Notes under the pieces: model-generated | What the model was told of the DNA's origin: nothing | Database searches by the model: none | Seen by the model: the letters and a program-made list of their open reading frames with translations, nothing else | Source of the DNA: Austropuccinia psidii | Lineage: Eukaryota > Basidiomycota > Pucciniomycetes > Pucciniales > Sphaerophragmiaceae | Length of the DNA: 64,000 nucleotides | Direction of reading: 5' to 3' | Assembly (NCBI GenBank): GCA_023105745.1 | Contig: JALGQZ010000001.1 | Coordinates: 47,367,662 to 47,431,661 of the forward strand | Shown: positions 11,406-64,000 of the stretch, piece by piece | Layout of the letters: each line of letters begins with the position of its first letter | Position numbering within the stretch: the first letter of the stretch is position 1 | Made by a program: the position numbers and the translations under genes

Positions 11406-13457
11406 TTATTCTTCTTCTGATGGCTCAGAATCACTTTCATGTAAAGATACATCAGTTTCTTTTGTGTCTTCCACTTTTTCAACATTTATCTCATTGACTC
11501 TTGTCTTTTTTGGACAAGTGTTTGCCAAATGAGATGTGCTTCCACATTTATGACATTTCAAAGGAGGTCTGTCATGTGGTTTATTTGGTTTTGAAATTGG
11601 TTTCCCAATAGTCTTGTTGTCTATTGGGGTTTTGGACCAATTTCTTCCAATTTTTGTTTTAGTAGTGATGTCCTCCATAGCATTGATATAATCTTCTGTA
11701 GAGAAAGGCTCAATAAATCTGCTCCTTATAGCATGCTCAAGGTCACCACCACATTTTCTTAATATCCTTTTATGTACCATTGTTTCAGACATATCAGGAT
11801 GAAGGGAAGTTAACCTGTCCTTCTGTTTAAGAAACCAAGTCATGGGCCTGTCCCTTTCAATATTAAAAATGGCTTCTTCAATAGAATTTTCCATTCTAAA
11901 TCTCCAGGAATCATTTGCCCTTTTGGAAATAATTTGTTCTTTCCACCAAGGCCAAGAATGTTTACCATGGTCTTGTCTCATTTTATAATACCATTTCTTT
12001 TCTGATTTGGTAAATAATGAGTGTAATCTGGCACTTATGTATTCATCTGGTATGTTAAAGTCTTCTTTGAACATATCAATTGTTTTCATAAATTCCATAT
12101 GATTATATTCTACTTCACCACTGAAGTATGGCCATTCCTCTAATCTTGGAATGTCCTTAAAATTGCAAGCAGTTTCCACATCATGACTTGAAATTGTATG
12201 ATGTAATTCATTATTCAAGTTAAGAACATTTCTGTCAAGAATTGGTGTGGATTGCCTTGGAAATCCATTTTTTAGTGATATATTATTAATACTTGATTGA
12301 ATGTCTTCTTTCAATTCAAGTCTTGCTTTATTACTTTTTTCCAATTGTTCTTGAAAAAGAGCTGCATTGTGACCAGTAGAATTTTCCAAGTTTTGAACTT
12401 GTATTTTCAATTCTCTTAACTGTCCAGTTATAAAAGAAATTGAGTTCTCATCTGCTTGATTGAGTAAGGTAACTTTAGACTCAAGTCTTTCACAAATTTG
12501 GGTCAAAGACACAATATTGTCTTTATTAACATTGTCAAGGCCAATAATGGTCTTTTGTTGTTCTTTCACTTTCAATATCTCATTACCCAACTTCTGTTGG
12601 ACATAATAAAATGTTTTAAATTTTTCTATAATTTCTTTATTACAAGATTCAAAGTGAGTTACAAGTTTTACAAGATCGATTTCTTTGGGAAAGATTGGTT
12701 CAATCTTGCCTCCTCCTTGTTTTTGAATTCCATCAAGGTTCTTGCCATATTGAACACATTGTCCATGGCTGTCTTTTCCTTCTTTGGGATTCTGTAATTC
12801 TGAGGGTAAGGCTTGTTCCACTTGGGCTTTGCCTTTCCCTTTGCCTTTTGCTTGCCCTTCTGGTTGGTTTTTGGGGTTTGCTTGGGCTTGTTTGACACTT
12901 GTTGAGGCGGATTTTTGCTGGTGGATGCTTGGGGAGCTTCCACTGGGCTGGTTTCCTTGCCTTGGGCCAACTTCTTCTTCTGATCCTCTGATAACATGCT
13001 TTGGTTTTTCAACCAAGCTTTTATCTGTTGGACTTGTCCTTTGACAGACATGGGTGTACAACCCATCAGAAGGTCTTCTGTCTTTTCTGGTCCCATGAAC
13101 TTCTTCACTTGAAGATAAGAGTTCATGGTGCCTATCCAAAGACTTGGGAGAAGTTCCCACTCTTGTTGTTTTGATGCCAAGAACCAGTTCTTCCATTGAG
13201 ATTGATAAATTTCCACAGCTGCCTGTTGGAAATGGTTCAGGTCTAACAGGAATAGCAGTTATGTCAGCTTCTGGACTCTCAATAAGAGGTTCAAAGGTGC
13301 TGGCTAACCTTTGGGAACTGGTGAAAGTTCTGGCATCCTCCATTTGTGCCTCTCCTCTGGGAAGACATTCTTGCCTTTTGGATTTGTGGCTGGAATGTCC
13401 TGGTCCAGATCCATTTGATTGGATGGAGTAGTTACTTCCACTTCTAGTAAGAGTCAT
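11406..13457 (-). CDS. gag: Element C Gag, 683 codons, open
   Basis: It starts MTLTRSGSNYSIQ, matching the M-x-x-T-R-(S/N)-G start of the D and E copies. Residues 1 to about 260 are low-complexity and polar and overlap ORFX in another frame. A predicted coiled-coil-like region follows (about 270-400, rich in L/I/K/E), then the capsid-like block EEWPYFSGEVEYNHMEFMKT, WYYKMRQDHGKHSWPWWK, TWFLKQKDRLTSLHPDMSE, then a CCHC knuckle CHKCGSTSHLANTC near residue 635 and an acidic tail. The frame ends at TAA 11408-11406; in element D the equivalent frame runs on into protease, so this may be a truncated Gag-Pol. The start ATG lies within the ORFX intron. Confidence 0.85.
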   Translation of the reverse strand: MTLTRSGSNYSIQSNGSGPGHSSHKSKRQECLPRGEAQMEDARTFTSSQRLASTFEPLIESPEADITAIPVRPEPFPTGSCGNLSISMEELVLGIKTTRVGTSPKSLDRHHELLSSSEEVHGTRKDRRPSDGLYTHVCQRTSPTDKSLVEKPKHVIRGSEEEVGPRQGNQPSGSSPSIHQQKSASTSVKQAQANPKNQPEGQAKGKGKGKAQVEQALPSELQNPKEGKDSHGQCVQYGKNLDGIQKQGGGKIEPIFPKEIDLVKLVTHFESCNKEIIEKFKTFYYVQQKLGNEILKVKEQQKTIIGLDNVNKDNIVSLTQICERLESKVTLLNQADENSISFITGQLRELKIQVQNLENSTGHNAALFQEQLEKSNKARLELKEDIQSSINNISLKNGFPRQSTPILDRNVLNLNNELHHTISSHDVETACNFKDIPRLEEWPYFSGEVEYNHMEFMKTIDMFKEDFNIPDEYISARLHSLFTKSEKKWYYKMRQDHGKHSWPWWKEQIISKRANDSWRFRMENSIEEAIFNIERDRPMTWFLKQKDRLTSLHPDMSETMVHKRILRKCGGDLEHAIRSRFIEPFSTEDYINAMEDITTKTKIGRNWSKTPIDNKTIGKPISKPNKPHDRPPLKCHKCGSTSHLANTCPKKTRVNEINVEKVEDTKETDVSLHESDSEPSEEE

Positions 13458-13622
13458 TTCACGTCAATTTTAATAAAAAATAGAATAAAATTGAATTGAA
13501 TTCACCTGCAGGACCTTTAAAGGGCTCTTTGGTTATCAAACCCCTTGGTGGTGGGCTGGTTTGAATTTCAATACTGGACTCTGAGGTTTCAGAGTCTGAA
13601 GAATTTTCTCTGATGGAAGACA
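12668..13622 (-). CDS. ORFX of element C: spliced overlapping gene (predicted)
   Basis: Predicted exons on the minus strand are 13622-13506, 13443-13309 and 13242-12668. Exon 1 follows CTCTAG and begins TGTCTTCC. Intron 1 (62 bp, CCTGCAG|GTGAAT to CTTACTAG) contains the gag ATG 14 nt before its end. Intron 2 (66 bp, CCCAAAG|GTTAGC to CCTGTTAG) removes an in-frame TAG. The frame then stays open to 12668, and the exons plus one upstream base total 828 nt, about 275 codons. Notable segments are ERHKWRMPELSPVPK, DLNHFQQAAVEIYQSQWKNW, LLPSLWIGTMNSYLQVKKFM, a Lys/Pro/Gln-rich basic stretch, and KPYPQNYRIPK..AMDNVFNMARTLMEF. I recognise no known family. Its basic C-terminal half suggests nucleic-acid binding, as inference only. 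Confidence 0.6.
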
Positions 13623-14157: not shown

Positions 14158-16329
14158 TGTAAGGTTTGTCTATGAAACCCTTGATAATAGTAACAAAATC
14201 AAGAGTACTATGACTGTCCTCAGTAGAAATATATAATATAACAAAATATTATAGCCACAAATTTAAATATAATTATTAAAAATAATTATATAAAAAAATA
14301 AATTCAATTATTGTTATAAAAATATAATAATAAAAAATAATAATAATTATTCTATTATTGTTATAGTCACTGACAGTTATAACAATAAGAAGTGTAAATC
14401 TCTTAATGAGACAATTACACGTGGAAATATGAATATTAACCACTTATAAATAATATAAATATTATTTATAAAAGAATTATAACACACACTGTGCAGAAAT
14501 AATTCTTATAGAATAAAAATACTATATAAAAAAACTAATACTAGATAAAAAAGATATAGAACTTTAGAGAAAACTTACTTATAATATTTATTTAATACAA
14601 CAAGTCAAACAACAACAGTTATTATATTAAATAATGATTATAAGCTAAACACATGCCTAAAATCAATAATTTTAAAGATAAAACAGCTTTTTATATTAAA
14701 ATTTGAGATTGAAGAGTTTTTATGAGGAATTTGTGGATTTTAAAAGATATTTAAGATGATAATTTTATAATATACAATATATTATTGATGATTACAACAA
14801 TAATCTGAATTCTATGATTTCAATTCTTTAATATAAAACTAATAAAGAATAAAATAACTTACAAATTACTTCAATAATAAGATTTTATAAATAATAAAAC
14901 TTTAACTGTTTAAATTTCTAATATGATTGGATTGATGATGAATGATGGACAAAAACAGTGATGAAAAGACTCTTTTTATGTCTTCAGAGCAGCTCTTATG
15001 ATTCATAATTAATATAGAAGGCGTTCTCAGGACAAAAATGAAAAACCATACTTAAAAACAAAGTTCCCAACTTAAGGAAACTTGTTTTTAATTCCAATTT
15101 AAAGTTAACAGTGTTATTCTTAACTCCATGTACCTTTAATCCTCATTTAAACTGATTATTTTTAAGTTTTTAATTTATATAAACTTATTTATATCAAAAT
15201 TCATCACATGAACAGCTTAAAAATAGAGTTTCAAGCAGAAATCTCTCCAACTCAATTTTTAATTAATTTTTAAAGAAATCATAATTTTCTTTGAGCTTAA
15301 TTAAAAGAGTAAATTTCCAGGCTAATTACCCAGGAAATGTATTTATAAAAGATACTTAAAATTTAATTTATATGTAGATAATATTAAATTGTAAGCTGTG
15401 TGAAAATCTCAAGCAAATCCATTAAGATTTGGATTTTTAATGAAATTTTGATGTTATTGCTATTTTTCCACGTAAAATAGCAATACACACCAAACCTTAG
15501 CTTTTGATAACATTTTGATGCTTGTAACTTTAAAGCTTTGAGCTTATTTAAGGTTTTTAAGCTTGATTAAGCTTTGACAGTTCTTAAAACCTTGATTTCA
15601 AGCCTTCATTTTTGGATTTACCCTTTGGCAGCTTGAAATTCCTGTCCAAATTGGGATAAAACCAGTTTAAACCTTAAGGTTGGATCAAAGTCTAATCTTA
15701 AAGTTTAAATAAGGTTGAAAATCCTCCAATAAAGGTGGACAACCTTAATTGAATCATTGCAGATCCAAAAAGTTGAGTACCCCAGCTCTATTTGGTCCTT
15801 TTCCTTTGTCCCACCTTTTTGCGTGGATTTTGCCCTTTTATTTATTTAAAGCCATACCATGGCTTTAAACACTTTTAAATTGAGCTCATGCAGGATTTAC
15901 ATTCTGTATGGCAAATCCTTAGCCAATTCAGTAAATATACACCACACCTCAATTTTAACTAAAATTTTGGTAAGTTTGCATTAACCTTATGTAAATTTAA
16001 ATTTAAGCTTATTTAAGCTTAAATTTAACAATTTTAGAAAAATGTTAAAAAAGTTTTATTAGTACTGTGAGATTCTTAAATCTTCTAATAACACAATAAA
16101 TAAGTGTTTTTGGGTATAACACCTTATGGATGTACCCTAGGTCATTTTTGGTAAAGAATCCAAACATGACATAATATTGATAACTTTGTTTATCCAAAAA
16201 AAAGTTATACTTATTTTTTGTTATTTTTTATTTTAATTTCAACTAAAAAGTCTTTTGAAGACAAAATTAGCTGTTTATAAAATCATTTGTGGCCTTATGG
16301 GTATGTTATACATACCTCACAGGCTCACA
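14158..16329 (-). repeat. 5' LTR of element C
   Basis: 2172 bp, starting TGTGAGGTATG-like on the minus strand at 16329 (TGTGAGCCTGTGAGG) and ending ACCTTACA at 14158. It differs from the 3' LTR by scattered substitutions and lacks the 411-bp duplication, so this element is older than the D copies. The splice-donor region reads AAACAGTTAAAG here against AAACAGGTAAAG in the 3' LTR. Confidence 0.92.
14972..14980 (-). promoter_or_regulatory. Candidate TATA box of element C LTR
   Basis: Minus-strand CATAAAAAG within GAAGACATAAAAAGAGTC, followed by a pyrimidine-rich stretch and CATCACTG. The E LTR has GACTTAAAAGAGG in the equivalent place. Not tested. Confidence 0.4.
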
Positions 16330-19711: not shown

Positions 19712-21536
19712 TGTGAGCCTTAGAGGTAATTTCATATACCCAAAAGACCACAAATATAAAAAAAAACATATTAATATAAATAAAATAAATTTATTTATAT
19801 TATTAAAGTAAAAATAAAAAATATAAATATAAAATTATATTAAAAATAAAAAATTAATTATAATTTAAAAATAAAATTACTTTAAATTTTGTAAATATAA
19901 AATTACATTTATACTTGAAAAATTTAAGTAAAAATGAAATTTTAACAAAATTGTGAAAAAATAAATAAATTTGGAAAAAAGTTAAATAAAATTTATTATA
20001 ACTTTTTATCCAATAAATAAACATATAAATTTTATTTCACCATTGGATTCCTCATAAAAAATCAGGTGGGGTCACCTCTGAGTGAAATTTTTGTAACTCA
20101 ACTCTAAATAAGCTTAAATTAAGTTTTTAGTATTTTCAATACAAAAGTTGAAAATCCTCAAAACCTTAATTTAATTCACACCACATGTGGTGTTAACCAT
20201 CAATTTTTGTGTTAAAATTGAGGTGTTGTGTTTAGTTTAGAAGTTATGAGGAATTAAAGTATTTTCAATTGAATTCAATTGAAATGTCAAAATGTGCGCG
20301 TGTATTACATAAGTGAGCTTTGATTTACATATGAGGTGTCAATTATTACTGTATTGTACTGTACAATTGAATTGAATTACATGTGTAAATTATAAGTATA
20401 ATACATGATGAGGAATTAAAGGAAAAATAAATTGGAAAGATTAAATTTGGGGGGGAAAAGGAACTCCAGCTCTAAGGGGGAGCTAGACCCCCAAAATCCT
20501 TGCTGACAGGCGTGGGATGTCAAAATTCACGCAAAAGTTCATCACTTTTGGCCTGGAATTGAGTTACAGGGTCTGTGGACTCAATTGATGATGAGGTTTT
20601 GATACCAACTGGGGTAGTTTTAGCTGTTGCCAAGAAGGTAAAACTACCCTTAAGATAAAACAATCATAATAAAAACAGTTTTAACTGGTTTCTACGCCTC
20701 TGACACACATTCTGACGTGTTTTGAAGGCTCTAGGCCTGGTATTGCTATAGTAATGGCTGATTTAAGGGTCTAAAATGGCTAAAAATGGCTTAAACCAGC
20801 CCTTTTTGGTCTAAACCAGGGTTCAATGATGCCATAATTGGCTTTTCTGTTGTCAGACTGTTTTTCACGACTGACAAGAGTAAATTTTACTTTTGGAGTA
20901 AGAGAATTGATGGCTTTAAAAGAATGTCTTCTTTGCCCCACTTTTCTCTTCATGTTAGAATCTTTTCCTTTTATTAATTAGTTTAAAACTGTTAAACCAA
21001 TCAATCAAAGATTCCAACCACCACTTTTAAATCATTTTAATCCTTTTAACCACGTGAAAAAATCATTATAATCATTGTTTTTAACTCTTATAATCATTTT
21101 TACCCCTGAACCACCCCAAAAGTGAATTAAAGCATCTTTCATCACTGTTAACTTTGTCACTTTGTTTCCAAATTCACTCTGGTCACTTTTGGGCGTGTTT
21201 TCTCTTTAATATTCTTTTTAAAGACTTTGTTCTTTAATTAATTGCTTGCAGTTCTTTGCTCAATTAATTCCAATTGAAATTGCTCTTGAAGAAATTTCTT
21301 TTGTAGCCTTAAAATATCTCTTGTAGAGTATTTTTTGGATAAATCTTTATTGTTGGTAAAACAATAAATTTTTATATTATTGTTTTATACTAATAAAGTT
21401 ATAAACAATAAAATTGGCGTGTTTTCTCTTAAAAATAATATTTCATACTATTTTTAACTGAATTTTACCTTATACAAATTTTGAGGACAGGAAAAGTACT
21501 TGATTTTTAATCAAAGTTTCATATCCACACCTTACA
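19712..21536 (+). repeat. 5' LTR of element D1
   Basis: TGTGAGCCTTAGAGG...ATATCCACACCTTACA. It contains an AT-rich first third, a TGTGCGCGTG segment, a stem-like AGCTCTAAGGGGGAGCT, two copies of ATGGCTAAAA, and conserved CACGTG, GGCGTG and GACGTG words. The TATA box is altered in this copy (see 20914). Confidence 0.95.
20914..20921 (+). promoter_or_regulatory. TATA-box position of D LTR, mutated in this copy
   Basis: All other D LTRs in the window read GGCTATAAAAGAATG here (for example 36092). This 5' LTR reads GGCTTTAAAAGAATG. If this is the promoter, transcription of D1 may be reduced. A second, weaker candidate is further downstream near CATCTTTCATCACTG, which resembles the C start region. 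Confidence 0.45.
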
Positions 21537-21762
21537 TTTGGGGGCCCAGCCGTGATATTTTACCTGTGACATATTTTTTTTTACTCTTTTTAAATATTTT
21601 TTCTTATATTGAAAAATTTAAAAACATATAAAAAATACTTATAATTCAAAAAACCCATAAAAAATAATTTTTTTCATATTATAAGTGAGGCTTAAATTTT
21701 TATTTCTTTTTTTGAAATATCCTTTTTTTTACTTAATTAATTGGCTTTTTCATTTATTTTAG
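21537..21762 (+). other. Leader of D1: primer-binding site and 3' splice site
   Basis: TT then TGGGGGCCCAGCCGTG (21539-21554) directly follows the LTR and is the candidate primer-binding site. A T/A-rich stretch follows, ending in TTTATTTTAG at 21762, a strong 3' splice site shared by D2 and paralleled in C and E. No ORF starts here. Confidence 0.7.
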
Positions 21763-22674
21763 TGTCTGAAAACGTGGTAAGACAAGAAAACATTGAAACA
21801 GCCTCAACAGTAACCAGCATTATCCCTGCCAGTACTGTCAATTCTGATCATAATAGCACTGTTATTGTGACTCAAAATAACCAGCCTGAACCAATATCTT
21901 CTGAATTAATTAACTTGGACATAAGTAATACTCTTCAGAAGGCTAAGAATTTGGCCAACAGTAAGTTTTTGACGTAAAAATACTATTTTAAGCCTTTTTT
22001 AACCATAATTATGCCTTCAACCAGGTCAGGAGCCAGCTACAACCCCTCAAGCAGCTCCCAAAAAGGTAATAGACGTGATTATGGCAGAGGCCAACCAGGT
22101 ACAGAAGGAAAAGGGTCAGTTGATGACTTCCAAACAACTAAAATGGGTCATTCTGAAGCTGATAATACCATTTTACCTTCAAAAAGAGCTGACACCGCCA
22201 CAACAAGCCTCTGTGGACATATGCAAAGCCAGCCACAGTGCATACAACAATGCACTCCAATTCAAGGAGTACCAGATCCTTGCAGACCTGTGGAAGAATT
22301 GCATGAATTCTTACCTGACAGTAAGAAAATTCTTGGGCCATCCCAACACTTGCAAATTGCTCAATGGATGGCATCCATTGATGGAGAAGAAAAACATGAT
22401 GCTTTTGACACTAGAATGGAGGAAAAACAACCCTCCACCAGCCAAACCAGTGCCAAAAACAGCCCCAGTGGCCAGCAGCAGCAATTCCAACGTGAAAAAG
22501 CAGCCACAAACTCCAAACAAGGGCAAAGGGAAGGCACCAGCCCCAAAACCTTACAGCCAGGGCTACAGAATCCCAAAGATTCAGCAGGATGCCATGGAAA
22601 ATGTATTTCAGATGGCCAGAACCATGATGGAATTACAGAAGAAGGAGGAAGCCAGATTAAGGTTCCAGAAATGA
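21763..22674 (+). CDS. ORFX of element D1: spliced overlapping gene (predicted)
   Basis: Predicted exons are 21763-21960 and 22025-22674, joined by a 64-bp intron (CCAACA|GTAAGT to CAACCAG|GTC). The frame closes: 848 nt plus one base from an upstream exon gives 283 codons including the stop, about 282 residues. The first exon encodes a Ser/Thr/Asn-rich segment (VSENVVRQENIETAS...); the second gives EPATTPQAAPKKVIDVIMAE, ALQFKEYQILADLWKNCMNSY, RKFLG..N..KLLNGWHPL, a Lys/Pro-rich stretch (PQTPNKGKGKAPAPKPYSQG) and AMENVFQMARTMMELQKKEE. It overlaps gag in the +1 frame, and both frames are open for about 650 nt. The product may start at an ATG formed across the upstream splice junction (A|TG). 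No known family recognised. Confidence 0.65.
21961..22024 (+). other. Retained/removed intron carrying the gag start codon (D1)
   Basis: GTAAGTTTTTGACG at the 5' end, a TTAAC branch-site candidate, and TTCAACCAG at the 3' end. The gag ATG (22011-22013) is 14 nt before the acceptor, so splicing removes it and joins ORFX exons, while retention leaves gag readable. If retained, the ORFX exon frame ends at TAA 21975-21977, 33 nt before the gag ATG. Confidence 0.6.
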
Positions 22675-25600
22675 TTTCTGACATATTTGATTCCATCCCA
22701 GAGTTGTATAATGCTATAAATGACGTGAAAAAACATCTTTCTGATACAAATGACACCATTTGTAACAACATTAAAACAAACAACCTGAGTCTGTGCCAAA
22801 TTAATGAAACACTTATGTGTTTTGAAAAAAGTTTTGAGAACAATTAAAAATTCCAATAATGATAATTCTTCTAACAATAAAATAAATGAACAATCTGCCA
22901 TTATTAAAGAATTAACAGATAAATATTCTAAATTCAATATTGATGACATAATTGAAACAAGAATTAAACAAGCCATAAATATTATCAAGACAGATAACAA
23001 GAAAGTCCTTGATGACATTTCAAATTCATTTACTGAAGTAAAGACATATACCATTGCCTTGAAAAAGTGTTTTGATGCTTCACAAGAAGAAGTATCAAAA
23101 TTATCAATGAAATTGAATCAAGTCACTGCTGATAATACAAGACAGACAGAGTTATGGCAAGAACTTACACATAAAGAAGACAAATATAAAATTGAAGTAA
23201 TAAATTTAATACAAAGCTTCCAACATGAATACAGAAATTCCCAAAGGTGTAGCAACAGTAAAATGAATGACATTGAACAATTACTGAACACCTTACCAAG
23301 AATGTCTACACCTCTAAATCAAAATGAGGGCACAAGAATTTCAAATCCACAAGTATTGGATCCTGATAATTCACAATTAAAAAATGAATTATCCACTTCT
23401 TTTCATAACTTGGAACCATCAATGGGCCAAGCACTCTTGAAAGAAGTTCCAAAACTTAAAGAATGGCCTCACTTCAGTGGTGAAGGAGAGTATGACCATA
23501 TGGAATTCATTAGAGGTATTGACATGATCAAAGAGGATTTTGAATTACCAGACAGATTGGTAACAGCCAGGTTTAACACCTTGTTTACCAGATCAGCTCA
23601 CAGATGGTACATCAAAATAAGACAAGCACATGGACACCAGAGTTGGACTTGGTGGAAAACCCAAATCATCAACAAATGGGCAAATGATGCTTGGAGGTTT
23701 AAAGTTGAAACAGCCTTTGAATCTGCCAAATTTAATGCTGATAAAGACAAAGCTTTACCATGGTTTTGCCAACAAAAGGACAGATTAACAGCATTATATC
23801 CTGACATGTCAGAATTTATGATCCATAGAAAAATTCTGAGACAATGTGGAGGTGACTTAGAGCATGCTGTCAAAAGCAGGACTACTGAACAATCTTCAGC
23901 AGAGGATATTATCAATATACTAGAAGAAGTAACCACCAGAACCAAAATTGGTTCTAGTAGGGTGAATCTTAAAACAAGGTTTAATACACCTTGGAAAGAT
24001 TCTGTGGACAAAAACCCCAAAGAGAATTCTAGTAATATTAAATATAAATCTGCAGATACAGTCAGAAAATGCCATATTTGCCAAAGCACCACCCATTTAG
24101 CCAATACATGTCCAAAAAGGGGGAAAATCAATGAAATTGACATTGAAAAGGAACCAGATGTTGAAAAAGAAGACATAATTGAAGACAATTCAGATGATAA
24201 GTCATCCATATTTTCTGAATCTTCAAAAGATATAGAAAATATCAATGCCAATTTTGACATCATGGAATCTTATTCCCACTTACCACAATTGAGCAATGGT
24301 CAAGTTGATTTATCAAAAGTTCAAGATGCACAACTTATGAAGACAAAACCAAACAGAGGAAAAGGTTATACAGCTGGTAACTCCTGTATAAAAGAAGTGG
24401 TGATTGACAACAAACCCACCAAACTTTTGCTTGACCCAGGAGCCTTCTGCTCTTGTGTTGGAAAATCTTTTCTTAAGACTTGTGTACCAAATTTTGAAGA
24501 CCAATTGTTACCAATTGATGGTATAAAATTCAACAGTGCAAGTAACCCAATGAAAGCATTAGGAATCTTTGAGACCAATGTCATATTCCCACACATAAAT
24601 GGGAATTTAAGGATCACAGTTGAATTTGTTGTTATGGAAAATTGCTCTAGTACCCATTTTATATTGGGAAATGACTATTTAATCATGTATGGGATAGATT
24701 TACATAATAACAAAGACAGATACTTTACAATTGGAGACAATAAGCGCCAGAAATTTGCCTTTTTACCCTTTAAAAGACAAATTACAGTAAACAAAGTATC
24801 ACCAGTCAACTTAGAGTTAGAGAAATTCAAGTCTGAACAGTTAAATGAGGCTGAAATAAGCCTTCATCTGACTGATAAGCAAGAAAATGAACTTTCTTCC
24901 CTTTTGTATGACCACAGAGGAGCATTTGCTACAGACAAAGAACCTCTGGGAGCAATTATTGGTCATGAAGTTGACATCATTCTTAACATTGAGAGACCTT
25001 ATCCACCACTCTTAAGAAGACCTGCTTATCCAGCAAGTCCAAAATCAAGAGAAGCTCTAGAAATTCATATCAAAGAACTTCTAGACCTTGGTGTAATAAG
25101 AAAAGTAGGCCACAATGAGGAAGTAGAAATAACTACACCAGTCATAGTGGCGTGGCATAATGGAAAATCCAGAATGGTTGGGGACTTTAGAGCTCTGAAC
25201 ACTTACACTGTTCCAGACAGATACCCAATACCAAAAATCCAAATTGCCCTTACTCAAATATCTCAAGCAGTGTATATAACCACTATGGATGCCCTTAAAG
25301 GATTCCATCAAAATGTGGTAACACCAAGAGCAAGAAAATACTTGAGAATTATTGTTCATTGTGGAGTGTATGAATACTTAAGGATGCCCTTTGGTATCAA
25401 AAATGCACCTTCACACTTCCAAAGAATGATGAATGAAATCTTCCCTGAAGAACTCTCAGAGGGATGGTTAATCATTTACATTGATGACATTATTATCTGT
25501 TCAAAGACTTGGGAGGAGCACATGTACAGATTATCAAGAGTTTTGACAAAAATCCAATCAGTAAACATGAAAATCTCCTTGAAGAAATGTCATTTTGGAT

Positions 25601-27936
25601 TTAAAGAACTTAAGGCACTAGGACATGTTGTATCTGGTTTGTCCCTTGGAATTGATAAAAACAAAGTTGCAGCAGTATTGTTAAAACCCATGCCTCAGAA
25701 TAAGAAGGAAATTCAGTCATTCTTAGGTTTTGCAGGATATTACAGGCAACACATTAAAGACTTTGCATCCATAGCAAGACCACTTTATAAGTTGTGTGAC
25801 AAAGACACAGTATTTGAGATGACTGTTGACAGAGTCAAAGCTTTTGAGTCTCTAAGAGAAGCATTGACCACTGCTCCACTCTTACTGATGCCAGACTTTA
25901 AATTGCCTTTCAAACTGTATATTGATGCATCAGGGGATGGACTAGGTGCTGCACTTCACCAAGTTCAGATCATAAATGACAAACCTGTAGAAGGACCAAT
26001 ATGTTTCATATCCAGGCAAATCAAACCAACTGAAGCCAGATATGGAGCAAGTCAAATGGAATGTCTATGCCTTGTCTGGGCCTTAGAGAAATTGAACTAT
26101 TTCTTAGAGGGATGTGTTTTTGAAGTAATAACAGATTGTACAGCTGTGAAATCACTTTTGAACATGAAAACACCTAACAGACACATGCTCAGATGGCAAA
26201 TAGCCATACAAGAATACAGAGGCAATATGACTATTGTTCATAAGGATGGGAATATTCATAAGAATGCAGATGGACTAAGCAGATGGCCATTACCAAATAA
26301 CATTGATAATCCTGCTTATGTTCCAGAAGAAGCTTCACCACAAATTCCAATAGAAGGAATAAGTGTTACAGACTTGAACACCACCTTCTTTGAAGAAGTC
26401 AGAAATAGTTACACTCAAGATAAGAATTGTAGCATATTATGCCAATTACTTAACAAAGACTGTAAAGACAACTCTCTAATACATGCCTTGGATGAAGTAT
26501 GGAGAAAATCTTATAATGAAGGGAGATTTCACCTACTGGATGGTATAATTTACCACAGAACCAAGCACACATGTGTCATGACAGTTGTAGACAGGTCATC
26601 AATCAATCTTGTACTGAAAGAATGCCATGATAGTCCCTTTTCAGGACATCTTTCTGAGGACAGAACAAGAGAGAAAGTAAAGACCTGCATATGGTGGCCA
26701 ATGTGGCAAAAAGATGTTGCAGAATATTGCAAAACCTGTGACAGATGCCAAAAGGCAAAGAAATCCACTGGCAAAAGACTTGGAAATATGATGAAAATCC
26801 AAGAACCAAACAGACCTTGGGAAATTGTCCATATGGATTGGGTAACTGGCCTACCACCAGGAGGTGACAGGAGCTATAATGCTTGCCTAGTAATTGTGGA
26901 CAGATTCAGTAAAACTCCAATCTTTTTACCATGTCACAAAGATGATACAGCCATGGATACAGCTCTTCTGATATGGAATAGAGTAGTGTCATGGACTGGG
27001 ATATTTCCAAATATCATCAGTGATAGAGATCCCAAATTCACTTCAGCTCTATGGACAAATCTTCACCAATTATTTGGCACAAAACTGTCTTTCTCTACAG
27101 CCTACCACCCACAAACTGATGGTCTGGCTGAAAGAATGATCCAAACCTTAGAGGACATGGTGAGAAGATTTTGTGCATATGGCCTTGAATTCAAAGATTG
27201 TGATAGATTTACCCATGATTGGTGTACTCTGTTACCAGCACTGGAATTAGCATATAAAACATCAATCCATTCCAGTACCAATCAGACTCCTGCTATTCTA
27301 GAAAAAGGATGGAACCCCAAGTTACCCCAAGATTCCTTGAGGAAAGACTTAATTGAAATACATCCCACAGCTGCTAGCTTCAAAGGAATGCTAGACAAAG
27401 CTAGAAAGCATGCAGTGAGATGCATGGAGGACTCTTTTGCATATGCTAAAGACAAATGGGATAAATCTCATGCAACTCCAGATTTCAAAGTGGGGGACCT
27501 AGTTCTTGTATCCACCACTAACTTCAATAACATCAAAGGATGTAAAAAGTTAAAAGACTCCTTTGCAGGACCTTTTGTGATTAAGGCCCTCCATGGAGAA
27601 AATGCTGTTGAAGTAGAGTTATCTGAAGAACTTAGCAATAAGCACCCTACATTTCCAGTAAGCTTGATAAAGCCATACAAATCTAGTGATGCTGAGAAAT
27701 TTCCCTTGAGGAATAAGATTCCCCAAGTTATACCTCCTATTGAGACATCTGGTACTAAGAAAATAACCAAAGTTCTTAAAGAAAGGAAATTAAGAACCAA
27801 GAAAGTAAGGGAATACCTTGTTAGGTACAGTGACCCAACTTGTGAAGATGAATGGTTAGAAGAGAAAGATATACCAGAAGCCACCAAACTCCTGAGGAGA
27901 TTCAGACACACTAGAAACACCAATATTACAAAGTAA
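22011..27936 (+). pseudogene. gag-pol: Element D1 Gag-Pol polyprotein, one frameshift from intact
   Basis: Begins MPSTRSGASYN. The frame 22011-22847 shifts to that of 22804-27936 because an A run at 22825-22830 has six A where D2 has five. Without it the polyprotein would be about 1974 residues in one frame, so Gag and Pol are not separated by a recoding site. In the long frame (numbered from 22804) I see a capsid-like block with [17 protein letters not shown], knuckle [14 protein letters not shown] at 423, protease [11 protein letters not shown] (Asp 544), RT YIDD 892-895, RNase H Asp 1041, integrase H1275, H1282, C1312, C1315, catalytic D1345, D1407, E1443 (D-D35-E), GPF module and a chromodomain over about 1650-1700. 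The protease triad reads DPG rather than DSG/DTG. Confidence 0.93.
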
Positions 27937-27947
27937 TATTCTTTTTT

Positions 27948-27959
27948 AGGGGGAGGGAA
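27948..27959 (+). promoter_or_regulatory. Polypurine tract of D1
   Basis: AGGGGGAGGGAA abuts the 3' LTR start TGTGAGCC and is preceded by CTTTTTT. It is the expected primer for plus-strand synthesis. Confidence 0.9.
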
Positions 27960-33954: not shown

Positions 33955-34569
33955 TGTCTTTAATAAAATACAGTGCAGCTGGTAATAAGCTCAGTAAGAG
34001 ATATATTACTAGCCCAGAATCTGAATAAAGAATTGAAGTGCAAATTGCTAAAAGAGGAACTTTATTCAGAACAGAACAAGCTAAATTACCACCAAAAGGT
34101 GTGTGGTTCTGTCCTTTTATTTCATTTTTTTCTTGAATTGACGTGAAAATGGTGCATACCAGAAATGGAAGCAACTATTCAGTCCAACCAGATAGATGTG
34201 GAAAAGGAAGAGGAAAGAAAAATTCCAGAAGTGTCAAATCTTCCTCAAGAGAGACACATATGGAGGATGCCAGTGTTTCCCTCATTCCCCATGGTCTGTA
34301 CCCACAAACTTTGATGAGAAATCTGAATCTGGACTAATTCATGATATTATTTCAAGGGCTGAACCACTTTCAAGTGGAAGCAATAGAAATTAATCAATTC
34401 CAATACAAAAATTGGTGCAGAGCAGCCAAAGAAGAGGAGTGGGACATATGCCCAAGCCTTTGGCAGGGGGCCATGAACTCATACTTATACATCAAGAGCT
34501 TTCTGGGTCAGGAGAAGACCATAGAACTCTTAGGAGGTTGGAGCCCATTGTCTTTGAAAGACAAAGTCA
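33955..34569 (+). pseudogene. ORFX fragment of first E unit
   Basis: Predicted exons are 33955-34098, 34163-34293 and 34357 onward. The first exon has a TAA at about 34025 (SPESE*), so this copy is broken. Introns keep the family pattern: intron 1 (34099-34162, 64 bp) holds the gag ATG 14 nt before AG, and intron 2 (34294-34356, 63 bp) has GTCTGT...TTTCAAG. Exon 3 gives LNHFQVEAIEINQFQYKNW, CPSLWQGAMNSYLYIKSFLG and IELLGGWSPLS, then homology ends abruptly at 34569. Confidence 0.55.
34149..34569 (+). pseudogene. gag: Gag N-terminal fragment of first E unit
   Basis: ATG at 34149 opens MVHTRNGSNYSVQPDRCG, matching E3 and E4. Identity to E3 gag ends at about 34569, where an A-type primer-site/LTR segment begins. 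The capsid part is missing from this unit. Confidence 0.65.
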
Positions 34570-36940: not shown

Positions 36941-37852
36941 TGTCTGACAACGTGGTAAGACAAGAAAACATTGAAACAGCCTCAACAGTAACCAGCATTA
37001 TCCCTGCCAGTACTGTTAATTCTGATCATAATAGTACTGTTATTGTGACTCAAAATAACCAGCCTGAACCAATATCTTCTGAATTGATTAACTTGGACAT
37101 AAGTAATACCCTTCAGAAAGCTAAAAATTTGGCCAATAGTAAGTTTTTTGATGTAAAAATACTATTTTAAGCCTTTTTAACCATAATTATGCCTTCAACC
37201 AGGTCAGGAGCCAGCTACAACCCCTCAAGCAGCTCCCAAAAAGGTAATAGACGTGATTATGGCAGAGGCCAACCAGGTACAGAAGGAAAAGGGTCAGTTG
37301 ATGACTTCCAAACAACTAAAATGGGTCATTCTGAAGCTGATAATACCATTTTACCTTCAAAAAGAGCTGACACCGCCACAACAAGCCTCTGTGGACATAT
37401 ACAAAGCCAGCCACAGTGCATACAACAATGCACTTCAATTCAAGGAGTACCAGATCCTTGCAGACCTGTGGAAGAATTGCATGAATTCTTACCTGACAGT
37501 AAGAAAATTCTTGGGCCATCCCAACACTTGCAAATTGCTCAATGGATGGCATCCATTGATGGAGAAGAAAAACATGATGCTTTTGACACTAGAATGGAGG
37601 AAAAACAACCCTCCACCACCCAAACCAGTGCCAAAAACAGCCCCAGTGGCCAGCAGCAGCAATTCCAACGTGAAAAAGCAGCCACAAACTCCAAACAAGG
37701 GCAAAGGGAAGGCACCAGCCCCAAAACCTTACAGCCAGGGCTACAGAATCCCAAAGATTCAGCAGGATGCCATGGAAAATGTATTTCAGATGGCCAGAAC
37801 CCTGATGGAATTACAGAAGAAGGAGGAAGCCAGATTAAGGTTCCAGAAATGA
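36941..37852 (+). CDS. ORFX of element D2: spliced overlapping gene, open
   Basis: Exons 36941-37138 and 37203-37852 with a 64-bp intron (CCAATA|GTAAGT to CAACCAG|GTC), the same sizes as in D1. The gag ATG is at 37189, 14 nt before the acceptor. The frame is open throughout, giving about 282 residues with only a few changes from D1, even though gag-pol in this copy is broken. Segments and unknown function are as described for D1. Confidence 0.65.
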
Positions 37853-50723: not shown

Positions 50724-52628
50724 TGTGAGCCTTGAGGTATATTTTACATACCCAAATAGGGCACAATTATGTCAAAATTAAATGGTGAATTGTGAATAAC
50801 CCATAAGTCATACATATATTCAAAATTCATCTTTTTTGCTTTCAGAAAAGATGAATAATGTTTTATTGAGTAAGTGAATCAATGGATTTAAGGCCAGCTT
50901 TGGATTCTACAGAAAATTTTACCTAGGGTAGCTCAATAGAGTGAATAAGCTCAAATCAACTCTTTGAGGTGGTAATATGGAAAATACTTCAATACCACAT
51001 AATCAATACCACAAAAAGATCCGTGAAAATTTTTGTTTTTCTTAATTTCACGCCAAAATAATGGGAATGTGAGAAATCCCATGTTACATATACACTAAGA
51101 ATAGTGTTATTCATGTTTTGAGCATTTAATATCATTGTATTCTTAGATGGACTTTTGGTACACCCATAGTGGATATCTCACTTTAAGCTTAAATTTCTAT
51201 TTTGACGTAAAAAAAGGGGGACAAAAGACATCAAAGAAAGCCAGGGTACCCAACTTCTGAGGCCTCAGAGGCATGGGCAGCTCCAAAGCTTGGATCCATG
51301 GCTGAACTTGGCCTAATTGTTAAACTAAAACCTTTTGGGAACTTGGTTAACATGTTACAACTACTGTAAATCTTGACAAAATAGCAAATAACCTGCGATT
51401 TTGACGTGCCAAGGAGGTAAAGAGCTACTTAGACTCCTGTAACCATGTCAATTCTTAATTATTCTTCATGGATAGACCCCAAAAGAGTAATTAAAACCAT
51501 TTTTTGACTTGTATCCATTGATTTACCTCATAGCAACCAGTGAAACACTGATATTTGCAATTCTACGTAGAAATGAGGTAAAAACTTCAAAAATTCATTA
51601 AAAATACAATTCTTCATGGATCTTCCTGAAACCTTCAGGACCAATGGAGAGCTGTATCCTCTATGGTAAAATCAAAAAAAATTAAAGTTTTACTAGTAAT
51701 ATTCAAAGTTTTACTTACAGTCCATTTTTGACTATTCTACGTGAAACACTGAATCTTCAAAAATTTACAGTACTTACAACCTGTGATGAAATTGCAAATA
51801 ACATTGATAACTTTGAGAAATTAAGGATTATTTTGGAATAAAAGAAGATTTACAGATGTTACTACTTTTATTCTTAACCATATTGGGGTTGGTAGTCACG
51901 TAAAAGCCTCAATTAAGTAATTATGATAATCTTACGTGACAACAGATGATGCAATCAATGATACAAAAAGGTTTATTGTTTTCTCACTCACTGTCTCTTT
52001 ACTTTGCTCCATGGCATGCTTCTGTGAGCTTTTGTTGACTTAAAAGAGGTCTCTTCTTGCTGTTTTTTCCACATCATCATCATCTTATTATCATTTTAAC
52101 CATTATTACCAACAAGTAAGTATTAGTTATAGCTATTCTTAAGTGTTTTAAGTCTTTCAAAATCAATCAGAAAGACGTGAAATCAGAGAATCCAGCTATA
52201 TATTGTTGTAATACTGTTATGAATTCATTTTGATCCTTAAAATCTACAATTCTACATCAAATCTCTCTATCTTATCTTTCAATAAGCTCTTTGGAATATT
52301 AGTGAGTGATTTATCTTTAATTCTTAAAGTTTTTCTCTTAAATCAGTTTTCTTCAAGAATTATCATTATAATTATTCTTGCAAAAGATAATTATATATTA
52401 AAATAATTTTATTATTTTAATAAAAGAAGTTTTATTATTAAAGTCTTCTTGTAGACAACTACTTTCTCACTTTTAAAATCACTATTAGTGTTTAACATGT
52501 GAAAGAAGTAATTCTTTAATTATATAATTGTGGCTATAATAACATTTTGTTATTATATTTCATAAGAACAGTCATAGTACTGTTGATTAATAGTAATATT
52601 ATCATCAGCTTCATAGACAAATCTTACA
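50724..52628 (+). repeat. Family E LTR, second copy (shared by two units)
   Basis: 1905 bp, TGTGAGCCTTGAGG...ACAAATCTTACA. It has pol end on its left and a primer-binding site on its right, so it acts as 3' LTR and 5' LTR at once. Confidence 0.93.
52040..52121 (+). promoter_or_regulatory. Candidate promoter and splice donor in E LTR
   Basis: TTGACTTAAAAGAGG (TATA-like, 52040-52046) is followed by a pyrimidine-rich start region and, at 52116, the textbook donor ACCAACAA|GTAAGTATT. The exon would end in A. Joined to the acceptor at 53015, it would create ATG from A plus TG and drop a 900-nt intron containing the primer-binding site. All three E LTRs keep the donor. Confidence 0.5.
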
Positions 52629-53015: not shown

Positions 53016-54003
53016 TGTCTCCAATCAAATACTGTGCAGCTGGAAACAGACTCAGTAAAAGATATATCACTAGTTCAGAATCTTCAGAAGCAGAATCTGA
53101 AGACAGTATTGAGGTGCAAATTGCTAAAAGATGCACCTTATTTAATTCAGAAAAGACTAAATTACCACCAAAAGGTGTGTATTTTATCTTATATTTTCAC
53201 CTTTTATCTTTAAATTGACGTGAAAATGGTGCATACCAGAAATGGAAGCAACTATTCAGTCCAACCAGATGGATGTGGACAAGGAAGAGGCAACACCAAA
53301 TCCAGAAGTGCCAAGTCTTCCACACGAAAGACACATTTGGAGGATGCCAGAGCTGCCCCCCATTCCCCAAGATCTTTACCAACATATTTTGACGTGAATT
53401 CTGAGCCTGAACTAATTCATGATATTATTTCCAGGGCTGAACCATTTTCAAGTGGCAGCAATAGAAATATATCAATGCAAGTACAAAAACTGGTTCAGAG
53501 CAGCCAAAGAAGAGGAGTAGGAAATATGCCCAAGCCTTTGGCAGGGGACCATGAACTCCTACTTACACATAAAGAGCTTTCTGGGTCAGGAGAAGACCAT
53601 AGACCTCTTAGGAGGATGGAGCTCCCTGTCTTGCAAAGACAAGGTCAAAAAGATAAAGAATTGGTTGAAGAACCAAAGTCTCTTATCCATAGACCAGAAG
53701 AAGGAACTGGAAATGACTCCAGCTTTAGAGACAGAAGCCCCAGTGGCATCTACCAGCTCCAAACCAGCTCCAGAAGTGTCCAAAGACAAGCCCAAAGGAC
53801 CTCAGAAGAAGCAGAGAGGCCCCAAGAACCATCAAGGCAAGGGCAAAGGAAAAGCCAATTGGCACAGACCTTACCCACAAGGGTACAGGATCCCCAAATT
53901 GGAGCCTTCAGCCGTGGACAGTGTGTTCAACATGGCCAAAACTTTCCTGGAATTCACAGCCAAGGAGCAGGAAAGGATGAACAGGACTTTTCCATGCAAA
54001 TAG
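53016..54003 (+). pseudogene. ORFX of element E3, broken
   Basis: Exons 53016-53174, 53240-53371 and 53435-54003 total 860 nt; plus one upstream base this is 287 codons including the stop, so the frame closes as in C and D. Segments: VSPIKYCAAGNRLSKRYITS, a Ser/Glu patch, EMEATIQSNQMDVDKEEATP, ERHIWRMPELPPIPQ, LNHFQVAAIEIYQCKYKNWF, then MNSYLHIKSFLGQ..TIDLLGGW, a Lys/Pro/Gln-rich basic region (KGPQKKQRGPKNHQGKGKGK) and AVDSVFNMAKTFLEF. Two lesions are visible: the intron 2 donor is AT instead of GT (53372), and a TAG at about 53518 replaces the TGG of the E1 and E4 copies. Function unknown. Confidence 0.6.
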
Positions 54004-61381: not shown

Positions 61382-64000
61382 TGTCTTTAATCAAATACTG
61401 TGCAGCTGGCAACAGACTCAGTAAAAGATACATCAATAGTCCTGAATCTTCAGAAGCAGAATCTGAAGAAAGTATTGAGGTGCAAATTGCTAAAAGAGGC
61501 ACCTTATTTAACTCAGAAAAAGCTAAATTACCACCAAAAGGTGTGTATTTTATCTTATATTTTCACTTTTATCTTTAAATTGACAACAAAATGGTGCATA
61601 CCAGAAATGGAAGCAACTATTCAGTCCAACCAGATGGATGTGGACAAGGAAGAGTGTGAGCCTTAGAGGTAATTTCATATACCCAAAAGACCACAAATAT
61701 AAAAAATAACATATTAATATAAATAAAATAAATTTATTTATATTATTAAAATAAAAATAAAAATATAAATATAAAATTATATTAAAAATAAAAAATTAAT
61801 TATAATTTAAAAATAAAAAAAATACATTAAATTTTGTAAATGTAAAATTACATTTATACTTGAAAAAATTAAGTAAAAATGAAACTTTAACAAAATTGTG
61901 AGAAAATAAATAAATTTGGAAAAAAGTTAAATAAAATTTATTATAACTTTTTATCCAATAAATAAACATATAAAATTTATTTCACCATTGGATTCCTCAT
62001 AAAAAATCAGGTGGGGTCACCTCTGAGTGAAATTCTTGTAATTCAACTCTAAATAAGCTTAAATTAAGTTTTTAGTATTTTCAATACAAAAGTTGAAAAT
62101 CCTCAAAACTTTAATTTAATTCACACCACATGTGGTGTTAACCATCAATTTTTGTGTTAAAATTGAGGTGTTGTGTTTAGTTTAGAAGTTATGAGGAATT
62201 GAAGTATTTTCAATTGAATTCAATTGAAATGTCAAAATGTGCGCGTGTATTACATAAGTGAACTTTGATTTACATATGAGGTGTCAATTATTACTGTATT
62301 GTACTGTACAATTGAATTGAATTACATATGTAAATTATAAGTATAATACATGATGAGGAATTAAAGGAAAAATAAATTGGAAAGATTAAATTTGGGGGGG
62401 AAAAGGAACTCCAGCTCTAAGGGGGAGCTAGACCCCCAAAATCCTTGCTGACAGGCGTGGGATGTCAAAATTCACGCGAAAGTTCATCACTTTTGGCCTG
62501 GAATTGAGTTACAGGGTCTGTGGACTCAATTGATGATGAGGTTTTGATACCAACTGGGGTAGTTTTAGCTGTTGCCAAGAGGGTAAAACTACCCTTAAGA
62601 TAAAACAATCATAATAAAAACAGTTTTAACTGGTTTCTACGCCTCTGACACACATTCTGACGTGTTTTGAAGGCTCTAGGCCTGGTATTGCTATAGTAAT
62701 GGCTGATTTAAGGGTCTAAAATGGCTAAAAATGGCTAAAAATGGCTTAAACCAGCCCTTTTTGGTCTAAACCAGGGTTCAATGATGCCATAATTGGCTTT
62801 TCTGTTGTCAGACTGTTTTTCACGACTGACAAGAGTAAATTTTACTTTTGGAGCAAGAGAATTGATGGCTATAAAAGAATGTCTTCTTTGCCCCACTTTT
62901 CTCTTCATGTTAGAATCTTTTCCTTTTATTAATTAGTTTAAAACTGTTGAACCAATCAATCAAAGATTCCAACCACCACTTTTAAATCATTTTAATCCTT
63001 TTAACCACGTGAAAAAATCATTATAATCATTGTTTGTAACTCTTATAATCATTTTTACCCCTGAACCACCCCAAAAGTGAATTAAAGCATCTTTCATCAC
63101 TGTAAACTTTGTCACTTTGTTTCCAAATTCACTCTGGTCACTTTTGGGCGTGTTTTCTCTTTAATATTCTTTTTAAAGACTTTGTTCTTTAATTAATTGC
63201 TTGCAGTTCTTTGCTCAATTAATTCCAATTGAAATTGCTCTTGAAGAAATTTCTTTTGTAGCCTTAAAATATCTCTTGTAGAGTATTTTTTGGATAAATT
63301 TTTATTGTTGGTAAAACAATAAATTTTTATAATCTTATTGTTTTATACTAATAAAGTTATAAACAATAAAATTGGCGTGTTTTCTCTTAAAAATAATATT
63401 TCATACTATTTTTAATTGATTTTTACCTTATACAAATTTTCAGGACAGGAAAAGTACTTGATTTTTAATCAAAGTTTCATATCCACACCTTACAAAGAGG
63501 CAACACCGAATCCAGAAATGCCAAGTCTTCCACAAGAAAGACACATTTGGAGGATGCCAGAGTTGCCCCCCATTCCCCAAGGTCTGTACCAACAGATTTT
63601 GACGTGAATTCTGAGCCTGAAATAATTCATGATATTATTTCCAGGGCTGAACCATTTTCAAGTGGCAGGAATAGAAATATATCAATGCCAGTACAAAAAT
63701 TGGTTCAGAGCAGCCAAGGAAGAGGAATGGGAAATACGCCCAAGCCTTTGGCAGGGGGCCATGAACTCCTACTTACACATCAAGAGCTTTCTGGGTCAGG
63801 AGAAGACCATAGAACTCTTAGGAGGATGGAGCCCCCTGTCTTGCAAAGACAAGGTCAAAAAGATAAAGAATTGGTTGAAGAACCAAAGTCTTTTATCCAT
63901 AGACCAGAAGAAAGAGTTGGAAATGACTCCAGCTTTGGAGACAGAGGCACCAGTAGCGTCTACCGGCTCCAAACCAGCTCGAGAAGTGTCCAAGGACAAG
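61382..64000 (+). CDS. ORFX of element E4, interrupted by a solo D LTR
   Basis: Exons 61382-61540, 61605-61654 plus 63500-63581 (the D LTR and one target copy lie between), and 63645 to beyond the window. Intron 1 is 64 bp (AAAAG|GTGTGT to CATACCAG). Intron 2 is 63 bp with an intact GT (CCCAAG|GTCTGT to TTTCCAG), and the TGG lost in E3 is intact (EEEWEIRPSLWQGAMNSYL). Apart from the LTR insertion no lesion is visible, so this is the best E-family guide to the spliced frame. Product unrecognised; see the D1 entry for features. Confidence 0.55.
61591..64000 (+). pseudogene. gag: Element E4 Gag N-terminus, interrupted by a solo D LTR
   Basis: ATG 61591 gives MVHTRNGSNYSVQPDGCG up to the insertion, resuming after 63499 with SRNAKSSTRKTHLEDARVAP and open to the window end. 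The gag ATG again lies 14 nt before the ORFX acceptor. Capsid and Pol would be to the right of the window. Confidence 0.75.
61655..63494 (+). repeat. Solo LTR of family D in E4 gag
   Basis: 1840 bp, TGTGAGCCTTAGAGG...ACCTTACA, flanked by AAGAG duplications (61650-61654, 63495-63499). CTATAAAAG is intact. Three ATGGCTAAAA-type units. Confidence 0.95.

Follow-up and report, generated by a model that had tools for sequence, protein, structure and literature searches.

In complex retroviruses, genes such as those of Rev and Tat are built from spliced exons in frames overlapping other viral genes, and the unspliced RNA is the genome. Fungal long terminal repeat (LTR) retrotransposons are usually thought to need gag and pol only. 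Within the Ty3/gypsy elements, Cer1 of C. elegans carries CERV, a spliced accessory gene with a demonstrated role in the export of unspliced RNA (PMC10309623, consulted in part). Here, we describe a comparable gene, ORFX, in a stretch of 64,000 nucleotides (nt) from the rust fungus Austropuccinia psidii (assembly GCA_023105745.1, contig JALGQZ010000001.1, positions 47,367,662 to 47,431,661), hereafter the window. In this 64-kb window, Ty3/gypsy elements with LTRs form a nest, and in three of their families, named C, D and E, ORFX is a second open frame lying over the 5′ part of gag, on the same strand and at +1 relative to gag. We consider it highly probable that ORFX truly codes for a second protein, being dual-coded with 5′ gag and expressed from spliced RNA, an assessment which covers the gene and its splicing and does not extend to a regulatory role.

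In each of the three families, ORFX lacks an intrinsic start codon. The exons (Table 1) together with one base of the leader add up to 849 nt in D1 (two exons and a leader A; 282 amino acids), 828 nt in C (three exons; 275 amino acids) and 861 nt in E1 (three exons; 286 codons). An earlier note on this DNA had reported frames of 275, 282 and 286 codons overlapping gag, and both the coordinates and the arithmetic were confirmed, with the reservation that one of the E1 codons is an in-frame stop. The note had also described a clean join through one short consensus intron; this holds for D, while a second internal intron is required in C and E. All six internal introns tabulated end with AG and five start with GT; the second donor of E1 does not, whereas E2 and E3 have GT at this site. 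In C and E, intron 2 is open in the gag frame; D has no counterpart and ORFX reads through. Taking these exon models as they stand, the difference is an intron gain or loss within dual-coding sequence.

Evidence for ORFX comes from the codon positions at which the copies differ. In the overlap, gag codon position 1 is ORFX codon position 3, and non-overlapping gag served as the control. Between C and E (nucleotide alignment), differences at gag positions 1, 2 and 3 of the overlap amount to 108/242, 72/241 and 52/241, versus 48, 36 and 66 of 146 each in the control (chi-square against the overlap, p 4e-5). Similarly, the D1-E comparison gives 109/186, 87/187 and 80/187, versus 66, 36 and 77 of 148 in the control (p 0.003). 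When the C-E bias is followed by segment, it is found in exon 2 and in both halves of exon 3 (43/27/17 and 44/26/22), is gone in intron 2, where counts are small, and gives way to a gag-like pattern downstream of the ORFX stop (39/35/46), all as expected from the exon model. Moreover, the ORFX signature extends to exon 1, which lies outside gag. There, the D1-D2 differences at ORFX positions 1/2/3 are 0/0/8, with 7 of the 8 codons synonymous, those of E2-E3 are 4/3/14 and those of E1-E3 8/3/15. The D1-D2 and E2-E3 pairs, which share no sequence and were picked after the data were seen, together place 22 of 29 differences at position 3 (binomial p 3e-6). Within family E, exon 3 gives 6/3/14 (E1-E2), 6/5/12 (E1-E3) and 4/5/11 (E2-E3). 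The flanks are without pattern, both in D1-D2 (leader 2/1/2, intron 2/1/0) and in the E1-E3 leader (15/12/13); gap columns between D1 and D2 number 4 in the leader and 2 in the intron, and none occurs in exon 1 or in the last exon. D1 and D2 differ at 4/650 nucleotides of the last exon, compared with 8/199 in exon 1 (p 0.002) and 17/1025 in gag after the overlap (p 0.07). The openness of ORFX given gag is weaker evidence, with 1.5-6.6 stops expected (P 0.0004 to 0.12).

The gag frame was examined by a stop test, at which the last-exon ORFX protein was held fixed and synonymous codons were drawn (5000 draws). No gag-frame stop is present in the last exon of the 4 copies tested (C, D1, D2 and E1), where 6-16 are expected (P <= 4e-4); E3, which lay outside the test, carries one. 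Likewise, gag stops are somewhat rarer than expected at ORFX-synonymous changes (0 seen vs 1.7-3.5 expected, P 0.005-0.11). Judged from the substitutions and the stop counts together, the residue-level constraint within the overlap is mainly that of ORFX, gag being kept open while its residues drift. The claims of the earlier note that a spliced accessory gene overlaps gag in another frame and that both frames appear selected are thus favoured by the substitution phase, the exon 1 codons and the lack of gag-frame stops, the second being refined as to which frame bears most of the constraint. The composition of the gag overlap is disorder-like, and the charge-hydropathy boundary has the ORFX core on its folded side. 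Perhaps, then, the N-terminus of gag is the innovation, ORFX being the older frame over which Gag was later extended upstream; the greater constraint on ORFX and its folded-looking core speak for this order of events. Such a history, which is compatible with ORFX being a genuine spliced gene, is a reasonable possibility, though not one that we would favour outright.

As for translation, the start codon is predicted to be created by splicing. The leader acceptor AG is followed by TGTCT in all 6 copies with a leader in the window (C, D1, D2, E1, E2 and E3); thus, if the last base of the leader exon is A, joining would give a split start codon, A/TG (ATG TCT). The candidate donor, A/GTACT near the LTR end, is the sole AGT column common to the 5 leaders aligned (D1, D2, E1, E2 and C, with E3 left out), its position being a guide since these AT-rich leaders align poorly. 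Besides 21495 in D1, the last base of the putative leader exon would be 36675 in D2, 14209 in C and 52576 in E1. The motif ACAG....AGTACT was found at 10 places, all of them LTR ends, in a search aimed at the motif itself.

This LTR-end block is followed by a short stem-loop (21487-21536, 52568-52628 and, on the minus strand, 14158-14217), whose outer stem reads GUC/GAC in C and E1 and resembles GG/CC in D1. It is possibly a packaging or reverse-transcription structure. Compared with shuffled sequences, the fold is clearly better in C (z -2.67), with z values of -0.68 in D1 and -1.25 in E1. The idea that AGTACT is conserved entirely because of an RNA hairpin was therefore dropped and, as only C beats the shuffles clearly, the hairpin neither explains nor excludes the donor.

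If ORFX is real but begins elsewhere, it could be reached by leaky scanning to an in-frame ATG of the overlap or through another leader donor, the internal intron or introns alone being spliced. In-frame ATGs do exist in the overlap (in D, the M of MAEANQ), the candidate leader donor is weak and single leaders have further AGT sites. Yet exon 1 bears the ORFX codon signature and, in C, D1 and E1, contains no further in-frame ATG; intron 2 has to be removed in C and E, and the acceptor is followed by TGTCT in all 6 copies. We consider a start of this kind improbable.

Several observations weigh against a genuine, spliced ORFX. In the E1 copy, which is damaged (its last exon contains an in-frame stop and its second donor is noncanonical), the evidence from openness given gag is modest (one stop seen, P 0.005-0.05). 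The degraded fragment E3 has one stop in each frame, ORFX and gag, and in D the openness of ORFX given gag is only mildly unlikely (P 0.03-0.12). The C-D1 comparison is borderline (97/179, 69/180 and 75/181 in the overlap vs 177, 133 and 208 of 402 in the control; p 0.054), exon 1 of E1-E2 gives 4/2/6 with 6 nonsynonymous vs 4 synonymous codons, and the last exon of D1-D2 (2/1/1) has too few changes to show a bias. At ORFX-synonymous changes, the similarity of gag residues exceeds the chance level only slightly (P 0.007-0.11). As a leader donor, GTACT is weak in consensus, and it sits in a conserved LTR-end block which is perhaps kept for other reasons. Finally, the sample consists of three families in one window, and copies of the same family are non-independent. 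The stops of E1 and E3 and the mild values for D would also suit a relic of a real gene or of a former part of Gag, held open by descent and by gag constraint. Nonetheless, exon 1 lies outside gag and D1 and D2 differ in it solely at ORFX third positions (8/8), and across the overlap the C-E substitutions track ORFX codons, not gag codons; a relic is thus very improbable.

The arrangement of a working ORFX would bear directly on gag. In C, D1, D2 and E1, the start of the gag ATG precedes the intron end by 14 nt, and the acceptor AG of this intron falls within the codons for the T-R pair in gag's opening M..TR motif. Since the gag ATG lies within the intron, a retained intron would give Gag, and spliced RNA would give ORFX. 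The mechanism we propose from these positions is that splicing of an LTR leader exon with a final A to TGTCT would create the start codon, and that excision of a single short intron in D, or of two in C and E, would discard the gag ATG and bring the ORFX exons in frame. Unspliced RNA would retain the gag ATG and be translated into Gag-Pol. Splicing would act as an either/or switch, with Gag and ORFX predicted to be mutually exclusive on each RNA. At its other end, ORFX of D has a stop overlapping a gag-frame ATG (ATGA, 22671-22674) in a stop-restart-like manner, an overlap which C does not have. Translation restart at the ORFX stop was considered and dropped, as C has no gag-frame Met nearby.

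What the ORFX protein might do can be approached by analogy. An element whose genome has to remain unspliced although its introns are used requires some means of protecting or exporting that RNA. On this ground, we tentatively regard regulation of the element's unspliced RNA, in a way similar to CERV or Rev, as the likeliest function of ORFX. It is rather doubtful, though conceivable, that these elements represent a fungal Ty3/gypsy lineage with a complex-retrovirus-like programme, in which a spliced, dual-coded early regulator would tune the amount of unspliced genome and the intronic gag start would let splicing exclude Gag. The predicted structure of ORFX consists of a helical domain and a basic linker, the helical core being obtained from two starting sequences (AF2, C and D1). 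Towards its C-terminus, the protein has a conserved block, PY.QGYRIP. When the C and D1 models were compared by VIA-align, three-helix bundles were returned, frequently including MIT, and the arrangement was judged common. An MIT-like helical bundle would suit a protein-protein adaptor; ORFX could in that case be real and spliced and either be structural or modulate assembly, for instance as a partner of Gag, instead of regulating RNA, which we rate as somewhat unlikely.

Searches for relatives of the protein gave little. Pfam had no significant match to three ORFX pieces, a sequence search of PDB with ORFX gave a single match (E 0.77), and Foldseek, run with the C model only against PDB and BFVD, gave none at E <= 0.001. 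In viral contigs, 5 stretches were retrieved by a single-sequence search and 37 by the ORFX alignment, none of them a relative; nor was any of the 27 stretches found in genome contigs by the alignment, or of the 4 stretches in viral contigs that matched the pattern of the D1 capsid region. These contig collections comprise viruses, bacteria and archaea, so that the absence of relatives from them says little.

The features of the elements are collected in Table 1. The pol domains of D1 follow the order reverse transcriptase, RNase H, integrase, i.e. the gypsy order (Pfam), and its direct LTR copies end at 21536 and 29794. A match to the LTR repeat starts already at 27958, leaving no room for an open reading frame (ORF) between pol and the 3′ LTR. 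A CX2C..H..C motif is readable in the gag translations, and the Pfam zf-CCHC match on C gag is weak and below the cut-off (E 0.043). Further copies are D2, C (minus strand) and E1, besides E2 and E3, which are damaged copies of family E. Relative to D2, D1 loses its gag frame at 22789-22847, gag and the long gag-pol ORF of D1 being in different frames, and the frame of D2 breaks near 38.9 kb. A D-type solo LTR (61650-63494) lies inside the E2 element, interrupting ORFX exon 2.

Table 1. Positions in the window of ORFX, its predicted introns and associated features
Feature	Copy	Position	Strand	Remarks
Candidate leader donor	D1	21487..21500	+	putative; last exon base A 21495; intron from 21496 (GTACT)
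Putative leader intron	D1	21496..21762	+	would remove LTR end and leader behind it; ends pyrimidine-rich TTTATTTTAG
ORFX exon 1	D1	21763..21960	+	start codon A/TG predicted to be split across leader intron
Internal intron	D1	21961..22024	+	GTAAGT...CAACCAG, 64 nt, contains gag ATG
gag start codon	D1	22011..22013	+	inside internal intron
gag 5′ ORF	D1	22011..22847	+	overlaps ORFX; gag-pol ORF continues 22789-27936, other frame
ORFX last exon	D1	22025..22674	+	TGA at 22672-22674; AF2 helical domain
Pfam domains	D1	24298-27933		RVT_1 288-444, RT_RNaseH 533-640, Integrase_H2C2 764-822, rve 838-938
ORFX exon 1	D2	36941..37138	+	
Internal intron	D2	37139..37202	+	gag ATG at 37189
ORFX last exon	D2	37203..37852	+	
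ORFX exon 1	C	13506..13622	-	candidate leader donor after 14209
Internal intron 1	C	13444..13505	-	62 nt; gag ATG 13457-13455 inside
ORFX exon 2	C	13309..13443	-	phase signature 17/14/8
Internal intron 2	C	13243..13308	-	66 nt; gag frame open; no phase bias (7/9/7)
ORFX exon 3	C	12668..13242	-	phase signature; AF2 model
gag	C	11406..13457	-	open throughout
ORFX exon 1	E1	53016..53174	+	
Internal intron 1	E1	53175..53239	+	65 nt; gag ATG at 53226 inside
ORFX exon 2	E1	53240..53371	+	
Internal intron 2	E1	53372..53434	+	noncanonical donor in this copy
ORFX exon 3	E1	53435..54003	+	in-frame stop in this copy
ORFX exon 1	E2	61382..61540	+	copy split by solo LTR; exons resume at ~63.5 kb and exceed window end
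ORFX exon 1	E3 (degraded fragment)	33955..34098	+	has stop

Among the matches listed from the open-licence literature, in which subscription journals are mostly uncovered, no fungal element has a spliced gene overlapping gag; the statement of the earlier note that none has been described in fungal Ty3 elements is uncontradicted there, with a close analogue in the nematode CERV. Indeed, CERV of Cer1 is the closest analogue of ORFX that we found. As far as the consulted part of PMC10309623 goes, both are accessory proteins of Ty3/gypsy elements made from multi-exon spliced RNA, which for ORFX is a prediction, and one exon of CERV is in a non-gag frame, as ORFX is likewise out of the gag frame. 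Acceptor-like sequences before the initiator ATG of CERV in related species have a parallel in the acceptor that precedes TGTCT of ORFX. Moreover, CERV has no obvious homology beyond nematodes and ORFX is without relatives in the collections searched, and the unspliced RNA of Cer1 is both genome and Gag-Pol mRNA, as proposed for the elements with ORFX. Unlike CERV, ORFX lies upstream of and over gag and never shares its frame. The first exons of CERV are in the gag frame, whereas exon 1 of ORFX is upstream of the gag ATG and its later exons are at +1; the C-terminal part of CERV comes from an ORF between pol and the 3′ LTR, which D1 does not have. Furthermore, the function of CERV was demonstrated in that source, and that of ORFX is a deduction.

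In a fungal host, brtn of Boty/BcGypsy1 from Botrytis cinerea is, like ORFX, an additional gene in a gypsy element (PMC8365987 and PMC7264820, each consulted in part). However, brtn is called antisense in these excerpts, and ORFX is in sense, on the gag-pol strand, predicted to be spliced and dual-coded with gag. The shGAG of the Ty1/Copia element EVADE offers another parallel, as the choice between splicing and intron retention sets the product of an LTR element; yet splicing of EVADE yields a Gag-only mRNA, as seen in PMC8892269 (in part), whereas that of ORFX would take out the start codon of gag so that a different protein is made. In contrast to the genes of Rev and Tat, ORFX sits over gag, and both the host and the class of element differ; the comparison with complex retroviruses also rests on part of PMC7776567. 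If ORFX is what we propose, a second product is absent from the Gag annotations of such genomes, and these elements would be a repeatedly dispersed system for studying two proteins that evolve on the same bases. It would also mean that fungal elements, like complex retroviruses, came to use such devices of gene compression and splicing.
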